Shown piece by piece: positions 11,671 through 24,148 of a DNA stretch of 29,958 bases; position 1 is the stretch's first letter; each line of letters starts with the position of its first letter. The notes beneath the pieces were generated by a model. It was not told where the DNA came from, searched no databases, and saw only the letters and a list, made by a program, of their open reading frames with translations. The position numbers and the translations under genes are program-made. This DNA is from a virus: positions 1-29,958 of the IMG/VR virus record IMGVR_UViG_3300014493_000019; one strand, written 5' to 3'.

Positions 11671-11695
11671 GGGGCGCTTTGGCGCCCCTCTTTTT
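11671..11695 (+). terminator. Intrinsic terminator of the + strand arm
   Basis: GGGGCGC (11671-11677) pairs with GCGCCCC (11682-11688) around a TTTG loop and is followed by TCTTTTT. It lies 22 bases after the SPFH gene. On the opposite strand no U-tract follows, so it stops the + strand transcript. The T-run overlaps the last codon of the convergent fibre gene, showing how tightly the two arms meet. Confidence 0.9.
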
Positions 11696-13976
11696 ATGTG
11701 TAGTAGAACACGGCGGCGCCCGCGTTGCCCGCCAAGCCAGAAGTGTTCGAGAGATCGTACCCTCCATCACCACCGTAGTTGATGTAGCCATTGTTGACGC
11801 CTGTCGGCGTGTGGCCGCCCTGCGAGTACGAGCCCAAGCTGTTACCGTTCGCGCCGGCCGTGCCGGTCGTGTTCGCCTGGTTACCGCCGGACGCGGTCGC
11901 GCCAGCCGTCCCGCTGCCTGGTGAATAGACACTGCCGCTGAACTGCGCACCCTGTGCGCCCGTGCTGCCGTTCGCCGTCATCGTGGTGATGGTCAAGGTG
12001 CCAGATGATACCGTGCTAGCGCTCGCGTTGCCGCCAGGGCTCGCGTTCGCAGCACCAGCGCCAGCGCCGCCACCACCGCCAGCTGCCAGCGTGTAGGTCA
12101 TCGTCTTGCCAGCTGTGCAAGCATAGGAGCTGCGCGAGTACCCGCCGCCGCCCGCCGCACCACCGCCGTAGCCCGCGTTGCCGCCGCCACCGCCGCCGCC
12201 CGCACCGAACAGTTCTATCTGTACGTTGCTGGTACCGCTCGGTGCAGTCTCAGTCGCTCCAGCCGCCGCCGACGTGTAGGCGTGAATCACCGTTAGACCG
12301 GACACCGTGAGAGCAATCGAGCCGGCGCCCAGCACTGGCGTGCCGGTGTTGCTGCTCGATATCTGATACGTGCCGTTGACCGTCACGGAACCTACGTAGG
12401 TGCCGCTGTAGCCGGAGAGGCCGATGGTGAGCCCGGAGTTCGTGATGTTGGTCCACGAGCCCTGCGCCGCAGTGAAGTTCACGCCGCTCTGGCCGCTCGT
12501 GCGCGTGATGTCGATCCAATAACCGGAACCCACGTTCGAGGTCGTTGGCGAGTACCAGTTAGAGGTGGCGACACCGTTCAGCGTCGCCGTGCCGTTCGCC
12601 GCGAGGTTCAGCGGCGATGTACCAGTCCAGTTCGGCGATTGAATCGGCGAGCCGTTGATCGTGATCGTACCAGAGCCCAGCACGACCGTGCCAGCGGAGT
12701 CGCTGGAGATCTGATAGGTGCCGGTGACGAAGTTCGTCGGCGTGCCCGTTCCCGTGATGCCTATGCTGATGCCGCCAGCCGAGATGAGGACCGGCGTGCC
12801 AGTGCCAGCGCTGAAGCTGTATCCCGCGGTGCCGCCCGTCTGCGTGATAAGCAGATAGTAGCTCGCGCCGATGCTCGCGGTGGTCGGTGCGTACCAGTTC
12901 GACGCGGAAACGCCGTTGACCGTCGCCGTGCCGTTGCCGGCATAGACGACAGGCGTTACGCCGTTGTAGGTCGGGCTCTGCACGCCATTGTTATTCGACA
13001 ATGTTATGGTGCCGGTCGCCACAATCGGCGATCCGCTGATGCTCGACGAGAGCGTGTACGTGCCAGTGATCGTCGCCTGCGCGTTTGAGGTGATCGTCAG
13101 GCCGCCGCTCGTGATGTTCGCATACGAGCCGTTCGCCGCGCTGAACTGCACGCCGGACAGACCGCTCGTCTTCGTGATCTTGATGTAATAGCCGGCACCG
13201 ATACCTACCGTGGTCGGCGAGAACCAGTTGCCAGGAGTGGCAGTGCCGCCGACGACTGTGGTGAGACCATTGCCGCCGAACGTGACCGAGCTTGCGACTA
13301 TGATCTCGCCAACCGCTGTCGGGTTCGGGGTGTACGGGGTGAAGTTGTTGCCGTGCCAGATCGGCGTGTAATACTGCACGCCATCGCAGGTTATCGGCAG
13401 CCAGCCGGCGGGCGATGATGTCGCCGTGCCAGGCTTGTTGGTGGCCGTGAACGTCGCAGTCTGCGCACCAGTGGTCGCCGAGCTGTTGATGATTATCGCA
13501 GAGTTACCAGGGAGCGTGCCGATCACTTCGAGCGCAGCGGTGCCGAGTACGCCCGCGTTGATCGTGAGCGTGACGCCAGTGCCACCCGTGTTCGGTGCAT
13601 CGAGAGTAAACTCGCCCGTCGGCGCGATCTGGAAGCCGTAAGCGCTCAGCGAGGAGGTGCCCACCGTCGACAGCTGCGAGGAATATGGATCCTGCTGCCA
13701 CTGCTGCACGCCGGCACTGTTGAAGAACCGCACGCGATAGATGATCGACGGGTCGAGATAGATCGGGGGGAACCGGCCGTACGCATCGGAGGTGACGCGA
13801 CCAGTGTTCGAGAACGGCGTCGTCAGCGTGCCATTCGTATAGACGTTGGTCAGCGTGTTGCCACCCGACAAAGAGAACAGGTAGTACGAATTCGCAAACG
13901 TAGGCGTCAGATCGACCTGCGCCTCGCGATATGGCATGCCTTCAACAGCGCGGCCAGAGACGGTCGGGTAGCTCAC
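11694..13976 (-). CDS. Tail fibre / receptor-binding protein with three repeats and glycine-rich tip
   Basis: A 760-residue virion protein whose GTG start is one base after the upstream stop (TAA-C-GTG), so translation is probably coupled. Residues 1-205 are an adaptor domain homologous to the whole neighbouring 206-residue protein. Residues about 232-565 contain three repeats of about 110 residues with the anchor [GS]NW[FY]xPTT at residues 249-255, 359-365 and 472-478. Each repeat ends in a TGTYxISS...G[ST]I pattern; a beta-rich shaft is likely. Residues about 585-760 are extremely glycine-rich (GAGGGGGGG, GGGAAGGGG) with short strands, like glycine-rich tip domains of phage adhesins that bind host receptors. 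The protein should sit at the outer end of the tail and set host range. It ends at the convergent terminator. Confidence 0.82.
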   Translation of the reverse strand: MSYPTVSGRAVEGMPYREAQVDLTPTFANSYYLFSLSGGNTLTNVYTNGTLTTPFSNTGRVTSDAYGRFPPIYLDPSIIYRVRFFNSAGVQQWQQDPYSSQLSTVGTSSLSAYGFQIAPTGEFTLDAPNTGGTGVTLTINAGVLGTAALEVIGTLPGNSAIIINSSATTGAQTATFTATNKPGTATSSPAGWLPITCDGVQYYTPIWHGNNFTPYTPNPTAVGEIIVASSVTFGGNGLTTVVGGTATPGNWFSPTTVGIGAGYYIKITKTSGLSGVQFSAANGSYANITSGGLTITSNAQATITGTYTLSSSISGSPIVATGTITLSNNNGVQSPTYNGVTPVVYAGNGTATVNGVSASNWYAPTTASIGASYYLLITQTGGTAGYSFSAGTGTPVLISAGGISIGITGTGTPTNFVTGTYQISSDSAGTVVLGSGTITINGSPIQSPNWTGTSPLNLAANGTATLNGVATSNWYSPTTSNVGSGYWIDITRTSGQSGVNFTAAQGSWTNITNSGLTIGLSGYSGTYVGSVTVNGTYQISSSNTGTPVLGAGSIALTVSGLTVIHAYTSAAAGATETAPSGTSNVQIELFGAGGGGGGGNAGYGGGAAGGGGYSRSSYACTAGKTMTYTLAAGGGGGAGAGAANASPGGNASASTVSSGTLTITTMTANGSTGAQGAQFSGSVYSPGSGTAGATASGGNQANTTGTAGANGNSLGSYSQGGHTPTGVNNGYINYGGDGGYDLSNTSGLAGNAGAAVFYYT
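12282..13283 (-). repeat. Three tandem repeats of about 110 residues in the fibre shaft
   Basis: Unit anchors are N250-W-F-S-P-T-T, N360-W-Y-A-P-T-T and N473-W-Y-S-P-T-T, 110 and 113 residues apart. Each is followed by a G-x-G/S-Y-Y/W strand, a T-x-[ST]-G-x-[ST]-G block, and a closing TGTY or NGTY strand. Units 2 and 3 are closer to each other (both have TGT/NGTYQISS and VLGxGxI). Boundaries are approximate. Repeat number may vary among relatives and set fibre length. Confidence 0.75.
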
Positions 13977-13977
13977 G

Positions 13978-14598
13978 TTACTGCCAGAGCGGAATGTAGT
14001 ACGTCGCGCCGTCGCATTGGACCGGCAACCACTTCGTCGGAGCGGTAGTTGCAGAGCCTGGTTTGTTGGTGGCCGCGAACGTCGCGGTTTGCGTGCCGGC
14101 GACCGCTGTCGTGTTGGCGATCAGCGCAGGCGAGCCCGCGCCCGAGCCGACAAGCTCCACTGCGGTGCCGGACGCGCGAGCGTTCACCGTCAGCGTGATG
14201 CCAGACCCACCGGGAACCGGCGCAGCCATCACCATCTCGCCCTGTGCGTCGATGTTGAGTTGCCCATTGCCAGTAACCGGCATCGCCGGCACGTACGGGT
14301 CCACGTCCTCGATCAAACTCCAGGACGAGTTGTAGAGCTGGACGCGATATATCGTCTCCGGGTTCAGGAAGATCGGAGAGAACGCGCCCGTACCGTCGGC
14401 TTGCAGCACGGAGTACAGCGGCGAAGATCCGTTGAGCGCAGCGGCAGGATACGGCAGCGTGAGCCCCGCGTCCTGATAGACAATCGCGGGCGTCGTGGTG
14501 CCGGACACGTAAAAGTTGTAGTACGCGCCGGGCATGGAGACACCGAGCGACGACAGCGGCCGCGGAATCGGATCGTAAAAAAGTTGACCTGTTGCCAT
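13978..14598 (-). CDS. Short fibre-adaptor paralogue
   Basis: A 206-residue protein starting right after the upstream stop (GAT-TAA-ATG) with an AGAGG ribosome-binding site. It aligns along its whole length with residues 1-210 of the next fibre protein. Shared blocks include [AR]FxPI[FY]Lx2[PS]...IYRVxx[YF]NS, GxxxTVNA/TINAGxxGTA, Q-TATF-A-ATNKPG[ST]AT, and the end WLP[VI][QT]CDG. It lacks the repeat shaft and glycine-rich tip. It may be a separate tail-collar component onto which the longer fibre docks, or the remnant of a duplicated fibre gene that lost its tip. Intact codon use and tight coupling argue that it is functional. The N-terminus DPIPRPLSSLGVSMPGAYYNFYVSG is typical of podovirus fibre anchors. 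Confidence 0.75.
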   Translation of the reverse strand: MATGQLFYDPIPRPLSSLGVSMPGAYYNFYVSGTTTPAIVYQDAGLTLPYPAAALNGSSPLYSVLQADGTGAFSPIFLNPETIYRVQLYNSSWSLIEDVDPYVPAMPVTGNGQLNIDAQGEMVMAAPVPGGSGITLTVNARASGTAVELVGSGAGSPALIANTTAVAGTQTATFAATNKPGSATTAPTKWLPVQCDGATYYIPLWQ

Positions 14599-17500
14599 TT
14601 AATCCTCTGACTCGTCTTTTGGTGCAGCCTTGCCCGCCGCCCGTCGTTCCTGTCGAACTTGCTCTAAGCGCTCGGCCGCTGAAAGGAGGTGATGTCGGAG
14701 AGACGCTGCAGCAGTCTTGCTCGCTTCGCTTGGACCGGCTGCGTTGGCGCCTTGCTGCGACCCTGCAGCCACCCGTTCATCATTTCCTGCAAAGCGGCTG
14801 GACTGGAGGAGTCCGCGGTGTTGCTCGGAGCTAAAGAGCTGGTGGAAGTCGGGGGTACTGCGGATGAGTTCATCGGTGATATCTCCATTCTTAACTAAGT
14901 CGGGAATGCTGCGGTCGCCTTTCTCTTCAGCGTGCTCGTAGGCTGTCTTCGCCCAGGACCACACGGTCTCTTGCACTTCGGCCGGTGTCCACGTCTCGCC
15001 CGTCATCCGCGAGAGCATGCTCGCCGCCTGACGCACTTTGCCTGAGAGCGCGAGGTACGTTGCCGACTTGCCGGGACCGCTCTTGGTGAGTTCGCCGGCG
15101 AGCTTCGCCGGGTCTATCTTCGCGAACGACGCCATCCACGCATCGTTCGTCACTTCGTTGACTTTGTCTGTCAGGTTGTTGTAGAAGCTATGCACTTTCG
15201 GGCCGGACAGCTTGACGTTCGACGGATCATCAGCGGTCAACGCGCGGACGCCGTTGTTCACCCACGCGTCGAGCACGTTCGAGCGGTCCGTGTTCTTCGC
15301 GCTCTTCTGCGAACTTTCTTCCATGATCCGACGGATGTCCGACGGATCGGTGGGTCGCCCTTCCTTATCCCAGTTGACGTAGGTCTTGAGCGCGTTCGCG
15401 AAGTTCGTCTGCACGCTCACCTGCGGCGACATGGCCGAGAGGAGGGCGGCGAAGCGGGGCGCCTCGTGGCCGAACGTGTTGACGATGGCCTGGGAACTTT
15501 GCTTGTACCAGCCGCGCTTCGCGGCGCCTGCCATTGCCGCCGCAGCGTACTCTTCGGTGGCCGGCGAGTTGTGGAACGCCTCCACCAGCCGCTGCGTCGA
15601 GTCAGCGCGCAGCTGCCCGCGCTCCTGATCCGTCAGCTGGTTCGTGACATGGTGCTCGTCGGCACCGACGCCCTCCTCAGCGGACTTCACGACCTTGGGC
15701 GGCAGGAGGCCGGCCTTCTGGTCCGCATAGATCGTGTCAGCACTCGATGCACCTTTGTTCAGAGCTGCTGGCGGACCGGAGTTGACCCAGGAGTTCTGCC
15801 CGAGTGTCTCGCTGTCCATAGCTCCGCGGGCTTCTGGAGAATACATCTGACGGTGGGCACGCCAAGCGTTATATTCCCCGTTGGCTCGAAAACCGTTGCC
15901 TTCAGCAGCGTGTCCGTAATAATCGTGGACCGCTCGAAATAGATCGTTGTAGGTCGCATCCTTCCCACCCATCTTGATCGGAGCCTTCTCCATCATCGGA
16001 TGATCAGAGGGCGCGGCGCCCGAGCCGAAGCCCTCATCCGACGGGAAGACGCTCATGTGATTGTTCGCGCGCACATCTTCGTGCATCTCGCGCGGGTTCG
16101 TGTACGGATAGTCCTTGTCGAGATCGACTTTCACGCCGGCCTTGACCATCTGCTTGTACTGACCCAAGGTCTCCGACTTGAACGCGTCATACGACTTCGC
16201 GACCTTCGGATTCGTCGGGTCGTGCTTCATCTCTTCATAAGCGTCGCCCACGCTCTTCGCCACCTTGGGATCAAGGTAGCGATACTCGGAGAGCGGCTTG
16301 TAGTCGATGTTGGCAGACTTCGCGTAAGCTTTTGCCGCTGCACGCGCCGCGCCGTTGGGGCGGTCGCCCTCCGGCGCACCGCTCAGCGGCTTCTCGTTCA
16401 TGACACGTACCGAGCCGCGCTGGCCTGAGAGCCGGCGCAGAATCTCATTCTGCTCAGCTGATAGCGGCCGCTTGCCACCCATCTGCTGATTGGCGACGCG
16501 CTCGTTACGCTCGTTGCGGGGGTTGATCCCTTCGCCACGTTGGAGCGAACGCGCGGCGCCAACCGAGCGGTTCAGCGCGTTGTCATTCTGGAATGAGAAC
16601 GAGCCGCGCTGACCGGACATCCGAGCACTAAGCGGCTTGCCGTCGTGATCGCGGAAATAGTCTGGATTGAATTTGTCCCAACCCTCTTGCTTCGCAATCG
16701 CCTCATGGCCGGGCGCGACGTGCATAGACTCCGCGCCAGCGTCCGTACGCTGCGGGATCGCGGACTGCTTGGTCTTCGCCAGCACCTTCTGCATTTCGGG
16801 GTTCGAGAGCGGGCGGTCTGTGCTCGCAACCAGCGTGGGCTCAGCGACGCCATGCGCGTCAGGCGTGAGCACAGAAGACTTCGTAACCTTAGCACCCGTT
16901 GATTCTACGGCGCCCGTCGCCTCTTGCTTGCTCATTTTCCGAAAACCGGGCTGTCCCTCAATCCCCTGATGCAGGCCGACGTTCAACGTGGCGCCCGAGC
17001 CGACCTGAGGCTCGCGCGTCATCGAGTTCTCAGTGCGGCCGTCAGATTCGAAGCCGTGCTGCTCGTAATATGCTTTCAAGCGCGCGGGAGAGACCTTGTT
17101 CGCCCCTTGAGGGACGGCATCGAGTGTTACCCGAGCGCCGTGCTTGTCTGCGAGATCCGTGATCTTCTTGAGCGCAGCGGTGCCGGCGCCACTGCCAGGC
17201 TTATCCGCCGTCAGCTTCTCCAGATGCACCGCGCTCGGGTCGCCCGGATCGCGATACAGCTCGGCGGTTGACTTGCCCACACGACGACCGAGATAGCCGG
17301 CAGGCGCTTCTTCAGGGTGCAGCTCGTCGAATTCGCTCTTAACGCGCGCGCCCGGAGATTCATCCGGGTTCATGACACGCACAGAGCCTCGCTGCTTGCC
17401 GGTGCGGTCCACGAGACGCGACGTTGCCGCCTTGTCACGTGCCGCTTCGCTCATCTGCCCGGTAGCTTTCTCGACACCGTGCTCGATGGCTCGGCCGACC

Positions 17501-19872
17501 ATGCGACCGCCGAGCGGTATCTCGTGCGCGATGCTCGCGGCAATGTTGCCGCCAGCTGACAGCGCGCGACTGCCAAGGCCCGTGCGTTCGATCTGAGCGC
17601 CAGCGCCAGGATAGTGCTTGTCCATGTGCAGCGTGTTGCCAGCGTCATTGATCGTCTTCAGGTTCCTGAGAACGTCGGGACGATCTTTGAACGTGTCCGC
17701 CATCTTTGGGGCGTAGCTCGACACCGCATTATAGAATTTGCGCGCGTTCCAACTGCCGTCAGCGTTCGTCGCCGCAGCGTGTGCGCGACTCACCATGTGT
17801 GCTTGAATCTCGCGAATCGCGGCGGCACTCGACTCCGCCAACTCGCCGCCACCTAAGTGAGCGCCGGCCTTGAGCACGTTCAGGACGTGCTCATGCTGCT
17901 CGCGCGGCAGATCGGCGATGTAGTCCATCACCTTGTGCTCGGGGATCGCGTGGTTGATGCCCTGACTGTCCGCGGGAGCGAGTAGCTTCTTGATGCCTTG
18001 CGGCTCTTCGAGCATCTGATAGCTGTGACGACGCATCGCACGCGCGGTCTGGAAGAGTCCAGGTCCACCGTGTTCGGCAACGTCGAGATCGAGGTGATTC
18101 TTCAGATCACCAGCTACGCCCATCGCGTTAGGGTTCTTACCCTTGTCGTTCAGAAACTCGCGGAAGCGCTCGGCCGCGTTGACGCTGCCGGGAGGTGTAC
18201 CCTTGTCCGGGTCTCCCGTCGTCCACAGCCGTTGCAGGCGCTGCTTCGCGGCGCGCTGCAGACCGATCTCAGCATCGTTGGTGAAGTTCGAGTCGTCGTT
18301 GAGATAGTCGCTGACGCGCTGGAGCTTCGCTATCGGCCGCCCACCATTCGCCGCGCGGGCGGCGTCGTAATTTTGGTCAGTAGCCTTGTCGAACCATCCC
18401 TGTATGCCTTGGATCGCGTTACGCGTCACGCGACCACGGTCAGACACCGTCTGCGGGTCGACACTGTTGTCGAATTGCGAGCCGATACTCTGATGCACGT
18501 TCTCGGTGGCAGTGTGGAGCGCATTGTTCTCGCTCGCGATCTGCTGGCGCATCGGTTGGCTGCCGGTTTCCTTCAGCTGCCAATCATCGCCCGTGGCGTT
18601 ATAGTCCCCGGCGATGGCCGAGGCGCGGCGGGTCGGGAGCATGCCGCCTGACAGCTTGTCGACGGCATCGAGGCTCGCGGCGCGCGCGTCCTGTTGTTCA
18701 GGCTGCGGTGTCTCCTGCGGGCCCTCCTCCACGGGGGAGTTGAAGAGCCGTACGGAGCCGCGCTGATTGTCCGCGGCCGCCCGGCGCGCGGCGACGCCCT
18801 CCCGCACCAGCGCGCGCTGATCGGGGGACATGGACATGTCCATCGGCGCGTTATCGGTATCGGGTAGGACGGGGGTGCTGGGAGCGGCAGGAGCTGGCTC
18901 CTGGGCGGGCGGGGTTTCGGCCGTGCCTTGGGTCGCCGGAGACTCGGACGGCGCCTGGGGCTCCGCAGGAGGCGCAGATGCACCCTCCTGCTGAGCCGGC
19001 GGGCTTCCGTCGTTAGGTGACGATGCCGGTGCCTCCTGCGGAGATAGGGACGCCGGATGCACTGCCTGGTGGATGGTGCCTTCCGGGGCGGGTATGGGGT
19101 TCGGCTGGGCGCGTAGGGAGTTGCCGCTGACCGGCTGGCCCACGTCCGGGGTGAGTGCACCAGTAGGCGCCACGGTGCCCCCAGCGGCCGTATACGTCGT
19201 GCCGGCGGGCGGTTCGGGAACCGTGAACGCGCCCTTGGCGGCGCCGGCTGCCTTGCCGGCCACCCGAGCGCCGGCCCGTACCATGCCCGGAGCGCCGAGC
19301 GCCGGGAGATCGTTGCCAACGTCCGTGGCTACATCCGCCACGGCCTGGTAGGCGTTGTCCGGCAGCGTAGCCTTCAGGGCGGCGCCCGCCGTTCCCTGGA
19401 CGACTTGGCCTGGGACCGCCATCAGTGCGTTCGCGAAGCCGGCGCCTTCCTTCGTGGCAGGCACACGGTTCGCGCGATTGTTGACTTTCGCCGCCCACTC
19501 GCGGCCGCGGTCACGGCCCTGCGCGAGATAGTCGGACGCGTTGTCTGGATCGAGCGCAGCGCCGAGCGCGCCGGTAGCCTGGCCCGCGATGCTCGCGACG
19601 CCAGCGGGCACCGCTGCCGCATAGCCAGCGGCCGCGCGTGGCAGTCCGGTTAGCATCGAGAGACCTTCGCGGCCAGACTTCGCTTTGCGCACGTCCGGCG
19701 TCGCGTCGGGGTTGCGCATGAATTCGGCAACCTCTTCCGGCGCCTGCGCATCGTAACCCTTGTGCTGCTTGAACAGCTGAGCCGGCGTCGGCATGGCGTC
19801 CGTCGGGTCAGGGTTCTTCAGCCCGATGGTCGTCGGGTCCGGCATGCTGCTGATGTCGACTGGATCAGCCAT
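14599..19872 (-). CDS. Large multi-domain ejection-operon protein (polyvalent type)
   Basis: A 1757-residue protein coupled by TAATG to the preceding ejection gene, in the position of P22 gp16. The first about 230 residues are Ala/Gly-rich with amphipathic segments that may insert in membranes, followed by a Pro/Ala/Gln-rich linker to about 365. Four copies of the motif [NKG]QRGS[VF] (residues 369, 826, 1087, 1150) punctuate the chain. Residues about 878-945 resemble a GNAT acetyltransferase (GSGAGTAALKKI, AYYEQHGFE). Residues about 1200-1390 hold a phage domain with H1316-D-x-x-G-H1321, then ExNAWRxHxxMYS and ETLGQNSWVN. Residues about 1470-1650 match another phage-associated domain (SAMSPQ, LSGPKVHSFY, VTNDAW, EVQETVW). 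The layout is that of polyvalent proteins, probably carried in the virion and injected with the DNA. Domain activities are inferred from motifs. Confidence 0.75.
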   Translation of the reverse strand: MADPVDISSMPDPTTIGLKNPDPTDAMPTPAQLFKQHKGYDAQAPEEVAEFMRNPDATPDVRKAKSGREGLSMLTGLPRAAAGYAAAVPAGVASIAGQATGALGAALDPDNASDYLAQGRDRGREWAAKVNNRANRVPATKEGAGFANALMAVPGQVVQGTAGAALKATLPDNAYQAVADVATDVGNDLPALGAPGMVRAGARVAGKAAGAAKGAFTVPEPPAGTTYTAAGGTVAPTGALTPDVGQPVSGNSLRAQPNPIPAPEGTIHQAVHPASLSPQEAPASSPNDGSPPAQQEGASAPPAEPQAPSESPATQGTAETPPAQEPAPAAPSTPVLPDTDNAPMDMSMSPDQRALVREGVAARRAAADNQRGSVRLFNSPVEEGPQETPQPEQQDARAASLDAVDKLSGGMLPTRRASAIAGDYNATGDDWQLKETGSQPMRQQIASENNALHTATENVHQSIGSQFDNSVDPQTVSDRGRVTRNAIQGIQGWFDKATDQNYDAARAANGGRPIAKLQRVSDYLNDDSNFTNDAEIGLQRAAKQRLQRLWTTGDPDKGTPPGSVNAAERFREFLNDKGKNPNAMGVAGDLKNHLDLDVAEHGGPGLFQTARAMRRHSYQMLEEPQGIKKLLAPADSQGINHAIPEHKVMDYIADLPREQHEHVLNVLKAGAHLGGGELAESSAAAIREIQAHMVSRAHAAATNADGSWNARKFYNAVSSYAPKMADTFKDRPDVLRNLKTINDAGNTLHMDKHYPGAGAQIERTGLGSRALSAGGNIAASIAHEIPLGGRMVGRAIEHGVEKATGQMSEAARDKAATSRLVDRTGKQRGSVRVMNPDESPGARVKSEFDELHPEEAPAGYLGRRVGKSTAELYRDPGDPSAVHLEKLTADKPGSGAGTAALKKITDLADKHGARVTLDAVPQGANKVSPARLKAYYEQHGFESDGRTENSMTREPQVGSGATLNVGLHQGIEGQPGFRKMSKQEATGAVESTGAKVTKSSVLTPDAHGVAEPTLVASTDRPLSNPEMQKVLAKTKQSAIPQRTDAGAESMHVAPGHEAIAKQEGWDKFNPDYFRDHDGKPLSARMSGQRGSFSFQNDNALNRSVGAARSLQRGEGINPRNERNERVANQQMGGKRPLSAEQNEILRRLSGQRGSVRVMNEKPLSGAPEGDRPNGAARAAAKAYAKSANIDYKPLSEYRYLDPKVAKSVGDAYEEMKHDPTNPKVAKSYDAFKSETLGQYKQMVKAGVKVDLDKDYPYTNPREMHEDVRANNHMSVFPSDEGFGSGAAPSDHPMMEKAPIKMGGKDATYNDLFRAVHDYYGHAAEGNGFRANGEYNAWRAHRQMYSPEARGAMDSETLGQNSWVNSGPPAALNKGASSADTIYADQKAGLLPPKVVKSAEEGVGADEHHVTNQLTDQERGQLRADSTQRLVEAFHNSPATEEYAAAAMAGAAKRGWYKQSSQAIVNTFGHEAPRFAALLSAMSPQVSVQTNFANALKTYVNWDKEGRPTDPSDIRRIMEESSQKSAKNTDRSNVLDAWVNNGVRALTADDPSNVKLSGPKVHSFYNNLTDKVNEVTNDAWMASFAKIDPAKLAGELTKSGPGKSATYLALSGKVRQAASMLSRMTGETWTPAEVQETVWSWAKTAYEHAEEKGDRSIPDLVKNGDITDELIRSTPDFHQLFSSEQHRGLLQSSRFAGNDERVAAGSQQGANAAGPSEASKTAAASLRHHLLSAAERLEQVRQERRAAGKAAPKDESED
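16396..18768 (-). repeat. Four dispersed QRGS motifs in the large ejection protein
   Basis: The ten-residue motif occurs as NQRGSVRLFN (369-378), KQRGSVRVMN (826-835), GQRGSFSFQN (1087-1096) and GQRGSVRVMN (1150-1159). Genomic positions are 18739-18768, 17368-17397, 16585-16614 and 16396-16425. Copies 2 and 4 are followed by similar Pro-rich text. They sit at module boundaries, suggesting linkers, docking sites or cleavage sites. Confidence 0.85.
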
Positions 19873-21788
19873 TACAGCCCCAGCGCTTTGCGCGTTGCTT
19901 GCTCGTCCTGGAGTCCGTGCTTCTGCATGTACATTCTCACCTGTGCATCAGTATATTTCGGGGCGGGTGCGACACCCGCGTTCGGCTTCGCCGTCGTCGG
20001 CTGTGTCTCGGTCTGCATCGGGAAGTGCTCTTGGTTCCACGAGTTGAACTGATTCGCATCCTTGCCAGCGTGCAGATATGCCGGCACGCGCTTCGCGGAA
20101 TCGAGACTGTACTGCGACATCATCGCGCCCTTGCTGATCATGTCGCGCAGCGCGCCAGGATCCATGCTCGGCGACGGGTTCAGCTCGTTGACCAACATCT
20201 TCGCTTCCATCTGCGTCATCTTGGCGAAAATTCCTTTGCCCGCCTGCAGTGCCGCGGTGCCGAGATACTTCGCCATCTCTTGATAGTCGCCGGTCATGTG
20301 GTTCTGCCAGCCGGCGGGTAGCCACTTCGAATACTTCGCCAGCTCCGCGTTCCACGCGCCGCCGTCGTAGTTACCCTTGGCGAGCACGTCCTGAGCGGCC
20401 TTGTACATCGTGAGAGCAGCGGACGCGGCACCAACACCTTGGTTCGAGGTCTTGGCGAGATCGTTGCGGGCCGCGGTCTGGTTCTTCATATCCTCCATGA
20501 CTTGCGGCGGCGGCGTGGCGCCGATGGCAGGCTTGTACGGCTGGCCGTTGTTCGTCGGCTTATAGTCGTACTTGTCATCGTGCAGCGCGTCCGTGAGCTG
20601 CGGGTCGATGTTGCCCTGAGCGTTTCGCGCGCTGCCGGTGCCGTTCTGCGACTTCGGTTGGCCGCTCGGGTTCGTCGCGGGCGCAGCGGCGTGCTGACCC
20701 TGCACGTTATCAAGTGCGGACTGAGCGGTCGCGCGCGCCTCTTGCTTCTGCGCGCTGTTGCCGCTCAATGTCGACGCAGCGCCGGGCATGCCGAGCTGCG
20801 AGGCGCGGACCATCATCCAGTCGCCAGGACCGTTGATGTTCTTCGCGCCAGACATCTGCGCTGCCTTCCACGGCGCGACCTTTATCGAGCCGCCACTGCC
20901 GTCTGGCATATCGACAGACGGCGTGATCGCTTCGTGCGCGAGTTTGATGTACTGATCGGTCGACAGGCCGACCTTCTCGACGCCGGGGATTGTGATCCCG
21001 GTGTCCTTGTCGCGATACACGCCATCGTCGCCCTTCACAGCCTCGCGGCCGGTGTATTGGTGAACAGCACCCGCGACGTGCGATGCGAACATGCGCGCGG
21101 CGGCGTCTTCGTCCATCGCAGCATCGGGATCCTTCGCGAATTGCTTGCGGATCGCGGCGACAGTCTTAGGGTGCGAGGTTTCGAGCACGTCCATCGCGTT
21201 GCCATCGGGCGCGTCGGTCACGGCGTGCATCTTGTCGAAGTCGTCGCGAGCACCCATCTGATTCTGCTGAGTCTGCGACTGGATGCGCATGTCATGCATC
21301 GCCATCACGCGCTGCGGACCCATGCCATATTGGTTTTGCGGATCGACAAGGTACGCCTTCTGCAGCGCCTGCATCTCTTGCGGCGTGTACTGCGGCACGA
21401 AATACTTCGAGCGTAGCGCGGCATCGATCAGCGCGGGCTGATAGAAATTCTGGTCAGGGTTGACCGCGGACTTATCTTCGTCCGCGATATCAGAGCCGGG
21501 CGTAGTCGGCTGGTCTCCTGGACCGCCCTGGCTCGCCGGACCTTTAAGCCCGGTAGCACCAGACTTGTCGCTCTGTCCCGAGGTCTCATCGTTCAGCTGC
21601 GACAAGATCAGCGGCATGCGTGCCGACATGATCTTGTTCTGCATCGCAGCCGCTTGAGTCTGTTGCTGGATGTTCTGTGTGTTCGCCTGCGTCTGCTGCT
21701 GATTAGCGACAGCCGTCGGCCCGAAGTTTTGCGAATTGATGTTCGCAAGACCGAGGTTGAATGAACCGTTGTCAGCAATATCGCTCAT
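19872..21788 (-). CDS. Ejection-type virion protein, second of three
   Basis: A 638-residue protein coupled by TAATG overlaps on both sides, in the position of P22 gp20. The N-terminus (residues about 25-60) is Gln/Asn/Thr-rich. The centre (about 115-310) is helical and charged, with YFVPQYTPQEMQALQKAYL. The C-terminal region (about 430-600) includes KYSKWLPAGWQNHMTGDYQEMAKYL and AKMTQMEAKMLVNELNPSPSM. A short C-terminal segment YTDAQVRMYMQKHGL looks like a small peptide-binding motif. No transmembrane helix is visible. By position and composition it should be packaged in the capsid and ejected to help DNA cross the envelope. Assignment rests on context more than on a recognised family. Confidence 0.65.
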   Translation of the reverse strand: MSDIADNGSFNLGLANINSQNFGPTAVANQQQTQANTQNIQQQTQAAAMQNKIMSARMPLILSQLNDETSGQSDKSGATGLKGPASQGGPGDQPTTPGSDIADEDKSAVNPDQNFYQPALIDAALRSKYFVPQYTPQEMQALQKAYLVDPQNQYGMGPQRVMAMHDMRIQSQTQQNQMGARDDFDKMHAVTDAPDGNAMDVLETSHPKTVAAIRKQFAKDPDAAMDEDAAARMFASHVAGAVHQYTGREAVKGDDGVYRDKDTGITIPGVEKVGLSTDQYIKLAHEAITPSVDMPDGSGGSIKVAPWKAAQMSGAKNINGPGDWMMVRASQLGMPGAASTLSGNSAQKQEARATAQSALDNVQGQHAAAPATNPSGQPKSQNGTGSARNAQGNIDPQLTDALHDDKYDYKPTNNGQPYKPAIGATPPPQVMEDMKNQTAARNDLAKTSNQGVGAASAALTMYKAAQDVLAKGNYDGGAWNAELAKYSKWLPAGWQNHMTGDYQEMAKYLGTAALQAGKGIFAKMTQMEAKMLVNELNPSPSMDPGALRDMISKGAMMSQYSLDSAKRVPAYLHAGKDANQFNSWNQEHFPMQTETQPTTAKPNAGVAPAPKYTDAQVRMYMQKHGLQDEQATRKALGL

Positions 21789-24148
21789 TACCAGTCACCC
21801 AAGAAGCTAGTTGCATCGCTGCCGCCAGTGTCGGTCAGGCTGTTCCAGGTCGAATCGCCGCTGGAGTTGAAAGTGCTATCGGTCACGCTGTTCCAGTTCG
21901 GATCAGATGTGGTCGACCCCAAGCCAGATATGCCGAGCGGATTGCTCGCATCGAAGGTCGTCGTGGTGGGCGTCGTGCCGGTGCCCGGATTCTCGATATC
22001 ATACGGGATGCCAGTCGACGGATCCACGCCACCGTTCGCCGTGTCGCCAGAGTTCGCGGACATGCTGCCGCCGCTGCTCGTGCTGCCACCACTGCCGCCG
22101 CTGCCGCCGCTGCTTCCCAGCGCCTTGCCAGCAGCGTTGATCAGGCTCGTGCCGGCGCCGTTCGCACCGAACAAGCTGCCGGCAGAATTCGCGACGCCCG
22201 TGTAGCCCATCGCCTGCGCTTGGCCGATGTTCTGCTGCAGGCCGCTGATGTTGTTCGCGGTCGTCTGGTTCGCAGTCTGCAAGCCCTGATTCGCCGTCGT
22301 GCCGAGGCCGGCCGCACCCATCAGCTGGCTGATGTAGGTGTTGTAATCCTGTGAGGCGGTGCCGGTCACATACTGACCCACAGCTGCCGCGGTGTTCGGA
22401 GTGTACGCACTGCCCATCGCAGCGGCCTGGCGCTGGACGGCTTGCGTGCCCTGGCTCACAGCAAACTGGTAGCCGGGCATGTTCTCGAAGTTCGAATAAT
22501 TAGCGGGCGTGCCGTTCGTGCCTAGCGCGCTGCCGAGCGCGGTGTCCGCGCCCTGGCCGAGCTGTTGCTGCGTAGACCAAATGTTGTTGATGTTGCCAAG
22601 GTTATTCTGCTGCGTGGTGATCGCGTTTTGATCCGCGTTCGACTCCGCATTCGCCGCAGCGAGCGAGCCGGCGGTGCCTACGCCCGCCTGCAACACGCCG
22701 GGGAGCGCGCCAGTGATGGTCGAAGCAAGACTGGTGTCTGTGCTCGTAGGTGTGGATGACATGTTGCCGTTGGTCCCCTGAGTGCTCGTGCTGCCGAGAT
22801 TACCGAAAATGTTTGGCCCTGCGGCCATCGCTGTAGAAGTCGCGCCGCTCGCCACTGCGCCGCTCGTGTTCGCGCCGCTCGGCTGCGCGACGCCGTTGTA
22901 CATGCCGTTGATCGGCGCGTTCATCTGCAGGGCGCCGCTCGACGGCACAACCTGCTGAGTCTGAGACATCGTCGACGGTTGTGACACGGCTGGCAATGTG
23001 TTCGGCTTCGCCGCGGTCGGTGAACCCATCAATGCGCCAGCGGCCAAGCCCGTAGCTCCACCGATGGCGTAGTTCGTCCCAGCTGTTGCAAGCGAGCCTG
23101 CCGCAGTGCTGCCCGTGGCGCCGGCCACGCCAGACTTGATGTTGCCGAGGACGCCGGATCCCTGCACGGCACCAGCCACGCCTCCAGAGAGCGCGCCGAT
23201 ACCGACGTTGCCGCCGGTCAGCGCGCTGCGTGCTGCGCCGATGCCGGCGCCTGCAATACCCGTCGATATCGTGCTGCCGAGGCCGGTCGCGCTGTTGATC
23301 GCGCCGCCTGCCAATGGCACGAGGCCGCCGCCAGCAGCGCCGCCCAGCGCGCCACCGAGCACGCCGCCCGCGGTTATAGGTGCGCCTGTTATCGCATCTA
23401 CGGCGAGTGTGTTGATGCCGCCCATCACGCCGCCAGCAATCGCACCGGCAGCTAAGCCAGACGCGATGCCGTCAGCTGCGAGCGCGCCAGCGAGTGCGGG
23501 CGCGGCGACACCGAAGGAGAGTGCCGTCGCAGCAAGAGCGCCGATGTCGGCGCCGTACTTGCTCAAGAAGCTCTTCGTCGGACGAGCGCCAGCGAACTGT
23601 TCTACGTTTGGCGTATCGCCGATGGACGACGCTATGTTCGCCGCGGCGTCAGATCCGCCAGTGAGCGCAGCACCCGAGCCCCACGTTCCGTACGGGTTCT
23701 TGCCCAAACTCTCGGTAGCGCCGCCGATGCCGGCTGTCGTCTTGCCGTTGTAAACCGGGTTCGTGCCGAGCGCATTGTAGAATGACGTGTCTTCGGCTGC
23801 CGTCCAGTTCTTCGTCGGATCGAGTACCTTCAGTCCGCTGGACGACTCCATCGCTTCCAGCAACGGATCAGTGGTGGCTGAGTTGTAGTTCGTTCCAAAA
23901 AGACCTGACGTAGAGAGCGCGCTCGACCACGCGCCGGAGAAGTTGTTATCAGCGATGTCAGCTTCGGTCGTTTTGACCGCGGACTGATATGCCGGATTCG
24001 CGTAGGCGGCGGTGGTCTGAGCGGATTGCTTAGCGGCAGCCGAGGCCGCGGTCGCCTGCGCCTGCGCATATTCTGCAGCGCCGGTCGTACCGTCTGCAGC
24101 GCCGGTCGTACCGTCCGCAAGACCGACTATGCCGCCCTGTGATGCCAC
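21788..24148 (-). CDS. Ejection-type virion protein with glycine-zipper membrane region
   Basis: A 786-residue Gly/Ala/Ser/Thr-rich protein with a GTG start and a weak ribosome-binding site. Residues about 196-375 are a long hydrophobic Gly/Ala run rich in GxxxG spacing (for example AGAIAGGVMGGINTLAV, GGVLGGALGGAAGGG), suited to packed membrane helices. The later part (about 535-620) has YSNFENMPGYQFAVSQGTQAVQRQAAAMGS and QYVTGTASQDYNTYISQLMGAAG, a pattern I associate with phage DNA-transfer (ejection) proteins of the P22 gp7/gp20 kind. The C-terminus is low-complexity (GGSGGSGGS, then Asp/Asn/Ser). It probably forms part of an envelope-spanning conduit during infection. The gene begins with a 21-bp tandem duplication and is coupled to the next gene by TAATG. 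Confidence 0.7.
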   Translation of the reverse strand: MASQGGIVGLADGTTGAADGTTGAAEYAQAQATAASAAAKQSAQTTAAYANPAYQSAVKTTEADIADNNFSGAWSSALSTSGLFGTNYNSATTDPLLEAMESSSGLKVLDPTKNWTAAEDTSFYNALGTNPVYNGKTTAGIGGATESLGKNPYGTWGSGAALTGGSDAAANIASSIGDTPNVEQFAGARPTKSFLSKYGADIGALAATALSFGVAAPALAGALAADGIASGLAAGAIAGGVMGGINTLAVDAITGAPITAGGVLGGALGGAAGGGLVPLAGGAINSATGLGSTISTGIAGAGIGAARSALTGGNVGIGALSGGVAGAVQGSGVLGNIKSGVAGATGSTAAGSLATAGTNYAIGGATGLAAGALMGSPTAAKPNTLPAVSQPSTMSQTQQVVPSSGALQMNAPINGMYNGVAQPSGANTSGAVASGATSTAMAAGPNIFGNLGSTSTQGTNGNMSSTPTSTDTSLASTITGALPGVLQAGVGTAGSLAAANAESNADQNAITTQQNNLGNINNIWSTQQQLGQGADTALGSALGTNGTPANYSNFENMPGYQFAVSQGTQAVQRQAAAMGSAYTPNTAAAVGQYVTGTASQDYNTYISQLMGAAGLGTTANQGLQTANQTTANNISGLQQNIGQAQAMGYTGVANSAGSLFGANGAGTSLINAAGKALGSSGGSGGSGGSTSSGGSMSANSGDTANGGVDPSTGIPYDIENPGTGTTPTTTTFDASNPLGISGLGSTTSDPNWNSVTDSTFNSSGDSTWNSLTDTGGSDATSFLGDW
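24073..24114 (-). repeat. Tandem 21-bp repeat at the start of an ejection gene
   Basis: Two identical 21-bp units occupy 24073-24093 and 24094-24114 (+ strand unit begins CTGCAGCGCCGG). They encode the peptide DGTTGAA twice at residues 12-25. Exact nucleotide identity suggests a recent duplication; copy number may differ in relatives. Confidence 0.9.

Follow-up and report, generated by a model that had tools for sequence, protein, structure and literature searches.

A short QRGS motif, conserved as DNA, marks the joints between shuffled modules of a large phage ejection-operon protein

Here we report that a short motif, QRGS, recurs at the joints between dissimilar modules of a 1757-residue phage protein, that modules have been shuffled at this motif among related proteins, and that its core is identical and frozen at the DNA level. 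The analysis covered a viral stretch of 29,958 nt (IMG/VR record IMGVR_UViG_3300014493_000019; hereafter the window), whose contig is probably a genome fragment, together with 14 relatives. The reading that we favour, at slightly better than an even chance, is that the motif is a short in-frame coding joint heading interchangeable modules that are exchanged by recombination.

A multidomain protein in a P22-type virion operon

The minus strand of the window carries, in order, genes for a P22-type coat protein (Pfam, E=3e-22), a gp10-like head closure protein (Hc3; phrog_578, E=1e-57), a lysozyme and a holin, followed by three ejection genes and then tail genes. The ejection genes are:

21788..24148, minus strand: gp7-like "DNA ejection" protein (phrog_598, E=1e-17)
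19872..21788, minus strand: gp20-position ejection protein, named by position only
14599..19872, minus strand: gp16-position ejection/polyvalent protein of 1757 aa, an open reading frame with an ATG start; third gene, after the gp7-like and gp20-position genes

The gp20-position protein had no family match in Pfam or PHROGs. With a P22 coat, a gp10-like Hc3 and a DNA ejection protein alongside, the 1757-aa gene takes the last place in the gp7-gp20-gp16 order of a P22-type virion operon, and its position suggests that the product is probably injected into the host with the DNA. It unites several unrelated domains within a single phage polypeptide, as polyvalent proteins do. A preliminary description of this DNA had proposed a multidomain protein of the ejection operon, and gene position and the several unrelated domains support that assignment. 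The plus strand encodes early functions, comprising a DUF2800/PD-(D/E)XK protein, an Enc34-type ssDNA-binding protein, DNA polymerase A, endonuclease VII and an SNF2 helicase. The two tail genes that follow the ejection gene (13978-14598 and 11694-13976, minus strand) have in common a paralogous block, TQTATF.ATNKPG.AT....WLP..CDG..YY.P.W, which in its sequence suggests a duplicated fibre-attachment domain.

Modules and motif copies of the 1757-aa protein

From its N-terminus to its C-terminus, the protein is composed as follows, with the motif copies read from the sequence:

18769..19872, minus strand: N-terminal region (residues 1-368), variable in relatives, about 32-53% identity where alignable
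18739..18768, minus strand: motif copy 1, NQRGSVRLFN (residues 369-378), with the frozen 12-mer CAGCGCGGCTCC at 18765-18754
17407..18738, minus strand: helical ejection core (residues 379-822), 66-82% identity in relatives, then differing modules
17368..17397, minus strand: motif copy 2, KQRGSVRVMN (residues 826-835)
17008..17337, minus strand: GNAT-like module type a (GNATa; residues 846-955), assigned from a sequence pattern, common only to the window and L009
16648..16992, minus strand: LNVG module (residues 961-1075), phrog_11722-like, uncharacterised
16585..16614, minus strand: motif copy 3, GQRGSFSFQN (residues 1087-1096)
16429..16596, minus strand: short low-complexity module (residues 1093-1148), whose position differs between relatives
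16396..16425, minus strand: motif copy 4, GQRGSVRVMN (residues 1150-1159)
15673..16368, minus strand: C1 module (residues 1169-1400), phrog_3170, present in many unrelated phages
14956..15537, minus strand: DUF7178 / phrog_3842 domain (residues 1446-1639), a family match

The four xQRGS[VF]xxxN copies previously placed at residues 369, 826, 1087 and 1150 are exactly there, and copies 2 and 4, described as nearly identical, differ in the first of their ten residues only. QRGS is the most repeated 4-mer in the protein, occurring four times against an expectation of 0.033 in shuffled versions, and none of 20,000 shuffles contained more than one QRGS[VF]. Copies 1 and 2 lie within or adjoin segments with pLDDT below 50 in the AF2 model, placing both in predicted flexible linkers.

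The AF2 model of residues 1-845 comprises a helical core with confident regions, preceded by an N-terminal region (residues 1-368) of mostly low confidence. Residues 441-827 match the last (third) ejection-operon proteins of two uncultured Manatee Spring podoviruses at 25-27% identity, and both of these proteins stop shortly past the matched core. The closest predicted viral folds to the residues 1-845 model were phage proteins, those with annotation being lysozyme-like-domain, injection ("Injection protein") or large polyvalent proteins. The core had no gp16 match in Pfam or PHROG, and a PDB fold search with the model of the N-terminal region plus core returned no match. The GNAT label is tentative, being drawn from a sequence pattern and sub-threshold scores (for GNATa, Pfam Acetyltransf_1 at E=0.19), and the AF2 model of the C-terminal half, of low quality at pLDDT 41.7, gives only a weak hint. 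The C1 module is uncharacterised and widespread in phages, with FRAVHDYYGHA as a conserved motif; giant proteins of cyanophages have it at ∼40% identity, and proteins of actinophages (Mycobacterium, Rhodococcus, Gordonia) at 32-39%.

Module trains of relatives change at the motif

The 14 relatives come from viral contigs plus a single bog MAG contig, with L013, a near-duplicate of L012, omitted; they are few, mutually related and mostly genome fragments. Their proteins have the N-terminal region and core in common and then diverge into differing module trains, with the motif recurring at module joints in all 14, usually several times per protein (copy number 1 to 5). The 47 copies, including those of the window, have the consensus [Q/E/M]RG[SA]V. 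Ten module types follow the motif in the 15 proteins (core, GNATa, GNATb, LNVG, short, amphipathic, C1, EELQ and two ParB-like types), which agrees with the earlier view that it separates dissimilar modules and excludes its confinement to one conserved domain. Seven architectures illustrate how module order and content change at the motif:

Window: core, GNATa, LNVG, short, C1, DUF7178
L008: core, GNATb, LNVG, C1, DUF7178
L009: core, GNATa, LNVG, short, ParB-like
L010: core, GNATb, LNVG, short, amphipathic, C1
L011: core, short, GNATb, ParB-like, LNVG
L014: core, short, GNATb, EELQ, LNVG, C2
L016: core, LNVG, C1

The ParB-like label is tentative and derives from PHROGs matches to phrog_1033 (E=1e-5 and 4e-8 for L009 and L011, with a weak match for L046). 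Some joints lack the motif, namely GNAT|LNVG in most members, C1|DUF7178, and the junction of N-terminal region and core in L012, L032 and L046. Two further irregularities were seen in individual relatives. The L010 reading frame shifts soon after the last motif copy (L010:13643-13837 onward), leaving the C1/DUF7178 part in another frame through either a sequencing error or a real break. The C-terminus of the L024 protein, FPAKIVVGKFDHEEE, is nearly the same as that of the L009 ParB-like module, the remainder of which is absent, and by its sequence is likely a deletion remnant of such a module.

For each of the 47 motif copies we asked whether the 30 residues on each side were still neighbours in every other protein. 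Neighbour relations were broken in 56% of testable motif cases compared with a control mean of 10% (maximum 21%, 200 replicates). Since control positions were drawn at random from the same proteins instead of from linkers without the motif, and since these proteins are related to one another, the difference measures association rather than independent events. In 821 copy pairs, neither flank of one copy is related to that of the other; here identity is essentially limited to the residues Q to V and tails off towards N. Third positions of the R and G codons agree in 70%, where codon usage predicts 34-36%, and agreement over the 14 nt upstream of the motif is 31%. Identity over the 14-mer is 0.875 when the downstream module is common to both copies and 0.784 when the upstream module is, which means that the motif moves together with the downstream module, at its head. 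Around copy 1, the 60 aa upstream average 40% identity and the 60 aa downstream 70%. Of the roles first suggested for the motif, scars of module shuffling is thus the one strongly supported, by broken adjacency, unrelated-flank pairs, the architectures of relatives and the DNA-level signature described below.

Within the family of the 1757-aa protein, the motif falls between modules. The strict patterns QRGSV[RQ]VMN, QRGSV[RQ]xFN and QRGSFSFQND matched nothing outside this family in 2.9 million viral contigs, and on that ground we reject the possibility of a general phage motif. It was likewise absent from the other genes of near-complete relatives; a tblastn search of GenBank phages with a 21-aa motif peptide gave no match, and other giant phage proteins with C1 or core modules contained no analogous repeated short motif.

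The motif core is conserved at the nucleotide level

The site of copy 1 (slot 1) is orthologous in 12 genomes, in all of which the codons CGC GGC TCC are invariant, as is CAG in the 11 that have Q. In the slot-1 alignment, 108 four- or six-fold columns are conserved, of which only six keep a single codon: the R, G and S of the motif and three others (3/3 motif columns against 3/105 others, with a probability by chance of about 1e-4 on simple counting). The motif columns form the longest run of identical codons in the alignment, while the V codon beside them is free to vary. QRGA before GNATb likewise has fixed codons for G and A (GGC, GCG), and freezing is weaker in the short-module and C1 slots. 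Taken with the third-position agreement of 70% against ∼35%, the frozen codons of slot 1 indicate that the motif core is constrained or homogenised as DNA. Concerted evolution between slots was considered and rejected, given that each slot has its own codons (TCC in slot 1, GCG before GNATb), and it follows that copies travel with the downstream module.

Past the 12-mer the pattern V.[VLI][MF]N (hydrophobic V, V/L/I and M/F, plus N) is retained even as its codons vary, a sign of some constraint on the protein in that part. L012 and L032 have lost QRGS at slot 1 but keep LFN, which therefore belongs to the core module. A search for RNA structure at copy 1 gave no hairpin that was convincingly conserved (z = -2.2, three pairs).

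Explanations for the motif

If the motif acts as a coding joint, it would stand at the head of exchangeable modules, in flexible linkers of a large and probably injected protein, and its 12-14 bp of DNA (CAGCGCGG[C][T/G]C[C/G]GT), sometimes extending to about 27 bp (QRGSVRVMN), would provide a same-frame stretch of identity between co-infecting relatives, at which modules might be exchanged, inserted or deleted via phage or host recombination. The window phage encodes an exonuclease-like protein, an ssDNA-binding protein, a DNA polymerase and endonuclease VII. The account is illustrated by L010, in which two direct motif copies enclose an extra 104-aa cassette at a point where L009 and the window have a single copy. 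We infer that recombination at the motif sequence causes the shuffling and that maintenance of the motif reflects recombination rather than solely a protein-level role. Against this, 12-14 bp is short for ordinary homologous recombination, some joints are without the motif, and the retained V.[VLI][MF]N points to constraint on the protein; the frozen codons could also serve another nucleotide-level function. A bolder version, in which P22-like phages shuffle injected domains as cassettes by hot-spot or recombinase-driven recombination at a dedicated in-frame exchange site of 12-14 bp, kept as DNA and heading effector-like modules, we regard as unlikely.

Two protein-level roles are possible but less well supported than a coding joint. 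A host or phage protease might cut QRG[SA] in the linkers and free the modules during assembly or after injection, as would suit a motif that lies in disordered linkers ahead of many modules and keeps its residues while the surrounding linker varies. Precedents exist in the removal of 20 N-terminal residues from P22 gp7 by a host protease (PMC4992974) and in the zincin processing proposed for polyvalent proteins (PMC5512222). However, the 14 relatives contain no S78 prohead protease, the 1757-aa protein has no MPTase domain match, and Pfam and PHROGs revealed no peptidase in the subset of G006 proteins scanned, a scan with host proteases outside its scope. The motif is also missing at GNAT|LNVG and C1|DUF7178, and slot 1 has been lost in three relatives. 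With no protease in the proteins scanned and several family boundaries lacking the motif, the earlier suggestion of processing sites is unsupported so far, and we rate it as doubtful. Equally doubtful is docking, in which QRGSV[RQ][VLI][MF]N would form a short beta-strand, bind a partner (such as a chaperone, the portal or a different ejection protein) and tether the modules in packaging or ejection. The motif is an island in a variable linker, is limited to this family of ejection proteins, and keeps a conservative hydrophobic pattern past the 12-mer despite codon changes, all consistent with such a role; yet GNATb-type copies (QRGAVGDLSQ) lack that pattern, LFN at slot 1 belongs to the core, and copy number ranges from 1 to 5. 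Neither role explains the frozen synonymous codons.

We consider very unlikely a coding cassette system in which the 12-14 bp are recognised by a small serine recombinase (invertase/resolvase) of the relatives. Such a recombinase, of 181-220 aa, is encoded by six relatives, including all five records of at least 50 kb, and is absent only from records of at most 40 kb, and it is not in the window fragment; that of G006 matches the DNA invertase family phrog_125, and the joints are precise. Serine-recombinase crossover sites are about 26 bp long. The conserved motif block is shorter than these, there is no clear dyad symmetry around it, and no copy lies near the recombinase gene. Least probable of all is that the motif is a neutral leftover, a linker duplicated with its modules and inherited with no present role in DNA or protein. 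The copies are homologous by descent, with Ser always encoded by TCN and never AGY, and the motif can be lost, but slot-1 synonymous sites are invariant beside diverged codons and the motif is retained in a hypervariable linker.

The small serine recombinase genes (Resolvase, PF00239) fall into two score groups and are located at G001:44446-44883, G003:2480-2917, G004:1363-1791, G005:1486-1914, G006:22942-23370 and G007:9485-9919. In G006 an HNH endonuclease gene (L065:4373-4837) directly adjoins the recombinase gene.

Comparison with known systems

As in P22, the gene order runs from coat through gp10-like, gp7-like and gp20-position genes to the 1757-aa gene, and the helical core of its product has matches at 25-27% identity in other podoviral ejection proteins; P22 gp16 has 609 aa (PMC4992974), whereas the 1757-aa protein adds a C-terminal train of modules. 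The polyvalent proteins of Iyer et al. (2017, PMC5512222) are likewise very large, mosaic and likely injected, and they carry modules of the GNAT and ParB types that are tentatively assigned here; recombined cassettes have been suggested for them (PMC5512222). The text of that paper contains no repeated punctuating motif, and the 1757-aa protein differs in lacking an MPTase. Among open-licence literature we found neither a published description of the QRGS motif in phages nor one of a joint with frozen codons that recurs inside a single polyvalent protein.

Another parallel is offered by enterococcal phage endolysins, in which domains are shuffled around a conserved interdomain linker (PMC10630273). 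There too, differing domains are swapped on one side of a conserved linker; however, that is a single Pro/Lys-rich linker between two domains, whereas here a non-repetitive QRG[SA]V head precedes ten module types in a protein of ∼1700 aa. If modules are exchanged at the motif, as a coding joint would allow, phages may renew their injected enzymes in this way.

Whether phage mosaicism arises from targeted boundary sequences or from random illegitimate joining followed by selection is an open question, and the boundary-sequence model, one of two models of mosaicism, holds that short conserved sequences at joints target recombination (PMC3233612). The QRGS motif likewise places the same short DNA at the joints of unrelated modules, with module changes there and conservation at the nucleotide level. 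The boundary sequences of that model lie between genes (PMC3233612), whereas the QRGS joint lies inside one gene, in frame, is repeated up to five times and is codon-frozen. One small, countable sequence thus marks joints inside a single gene in 15 genomes, and since its codon-level signature separates constraint on DNA from constraint on protein, both models of mosaicism become directly testable.
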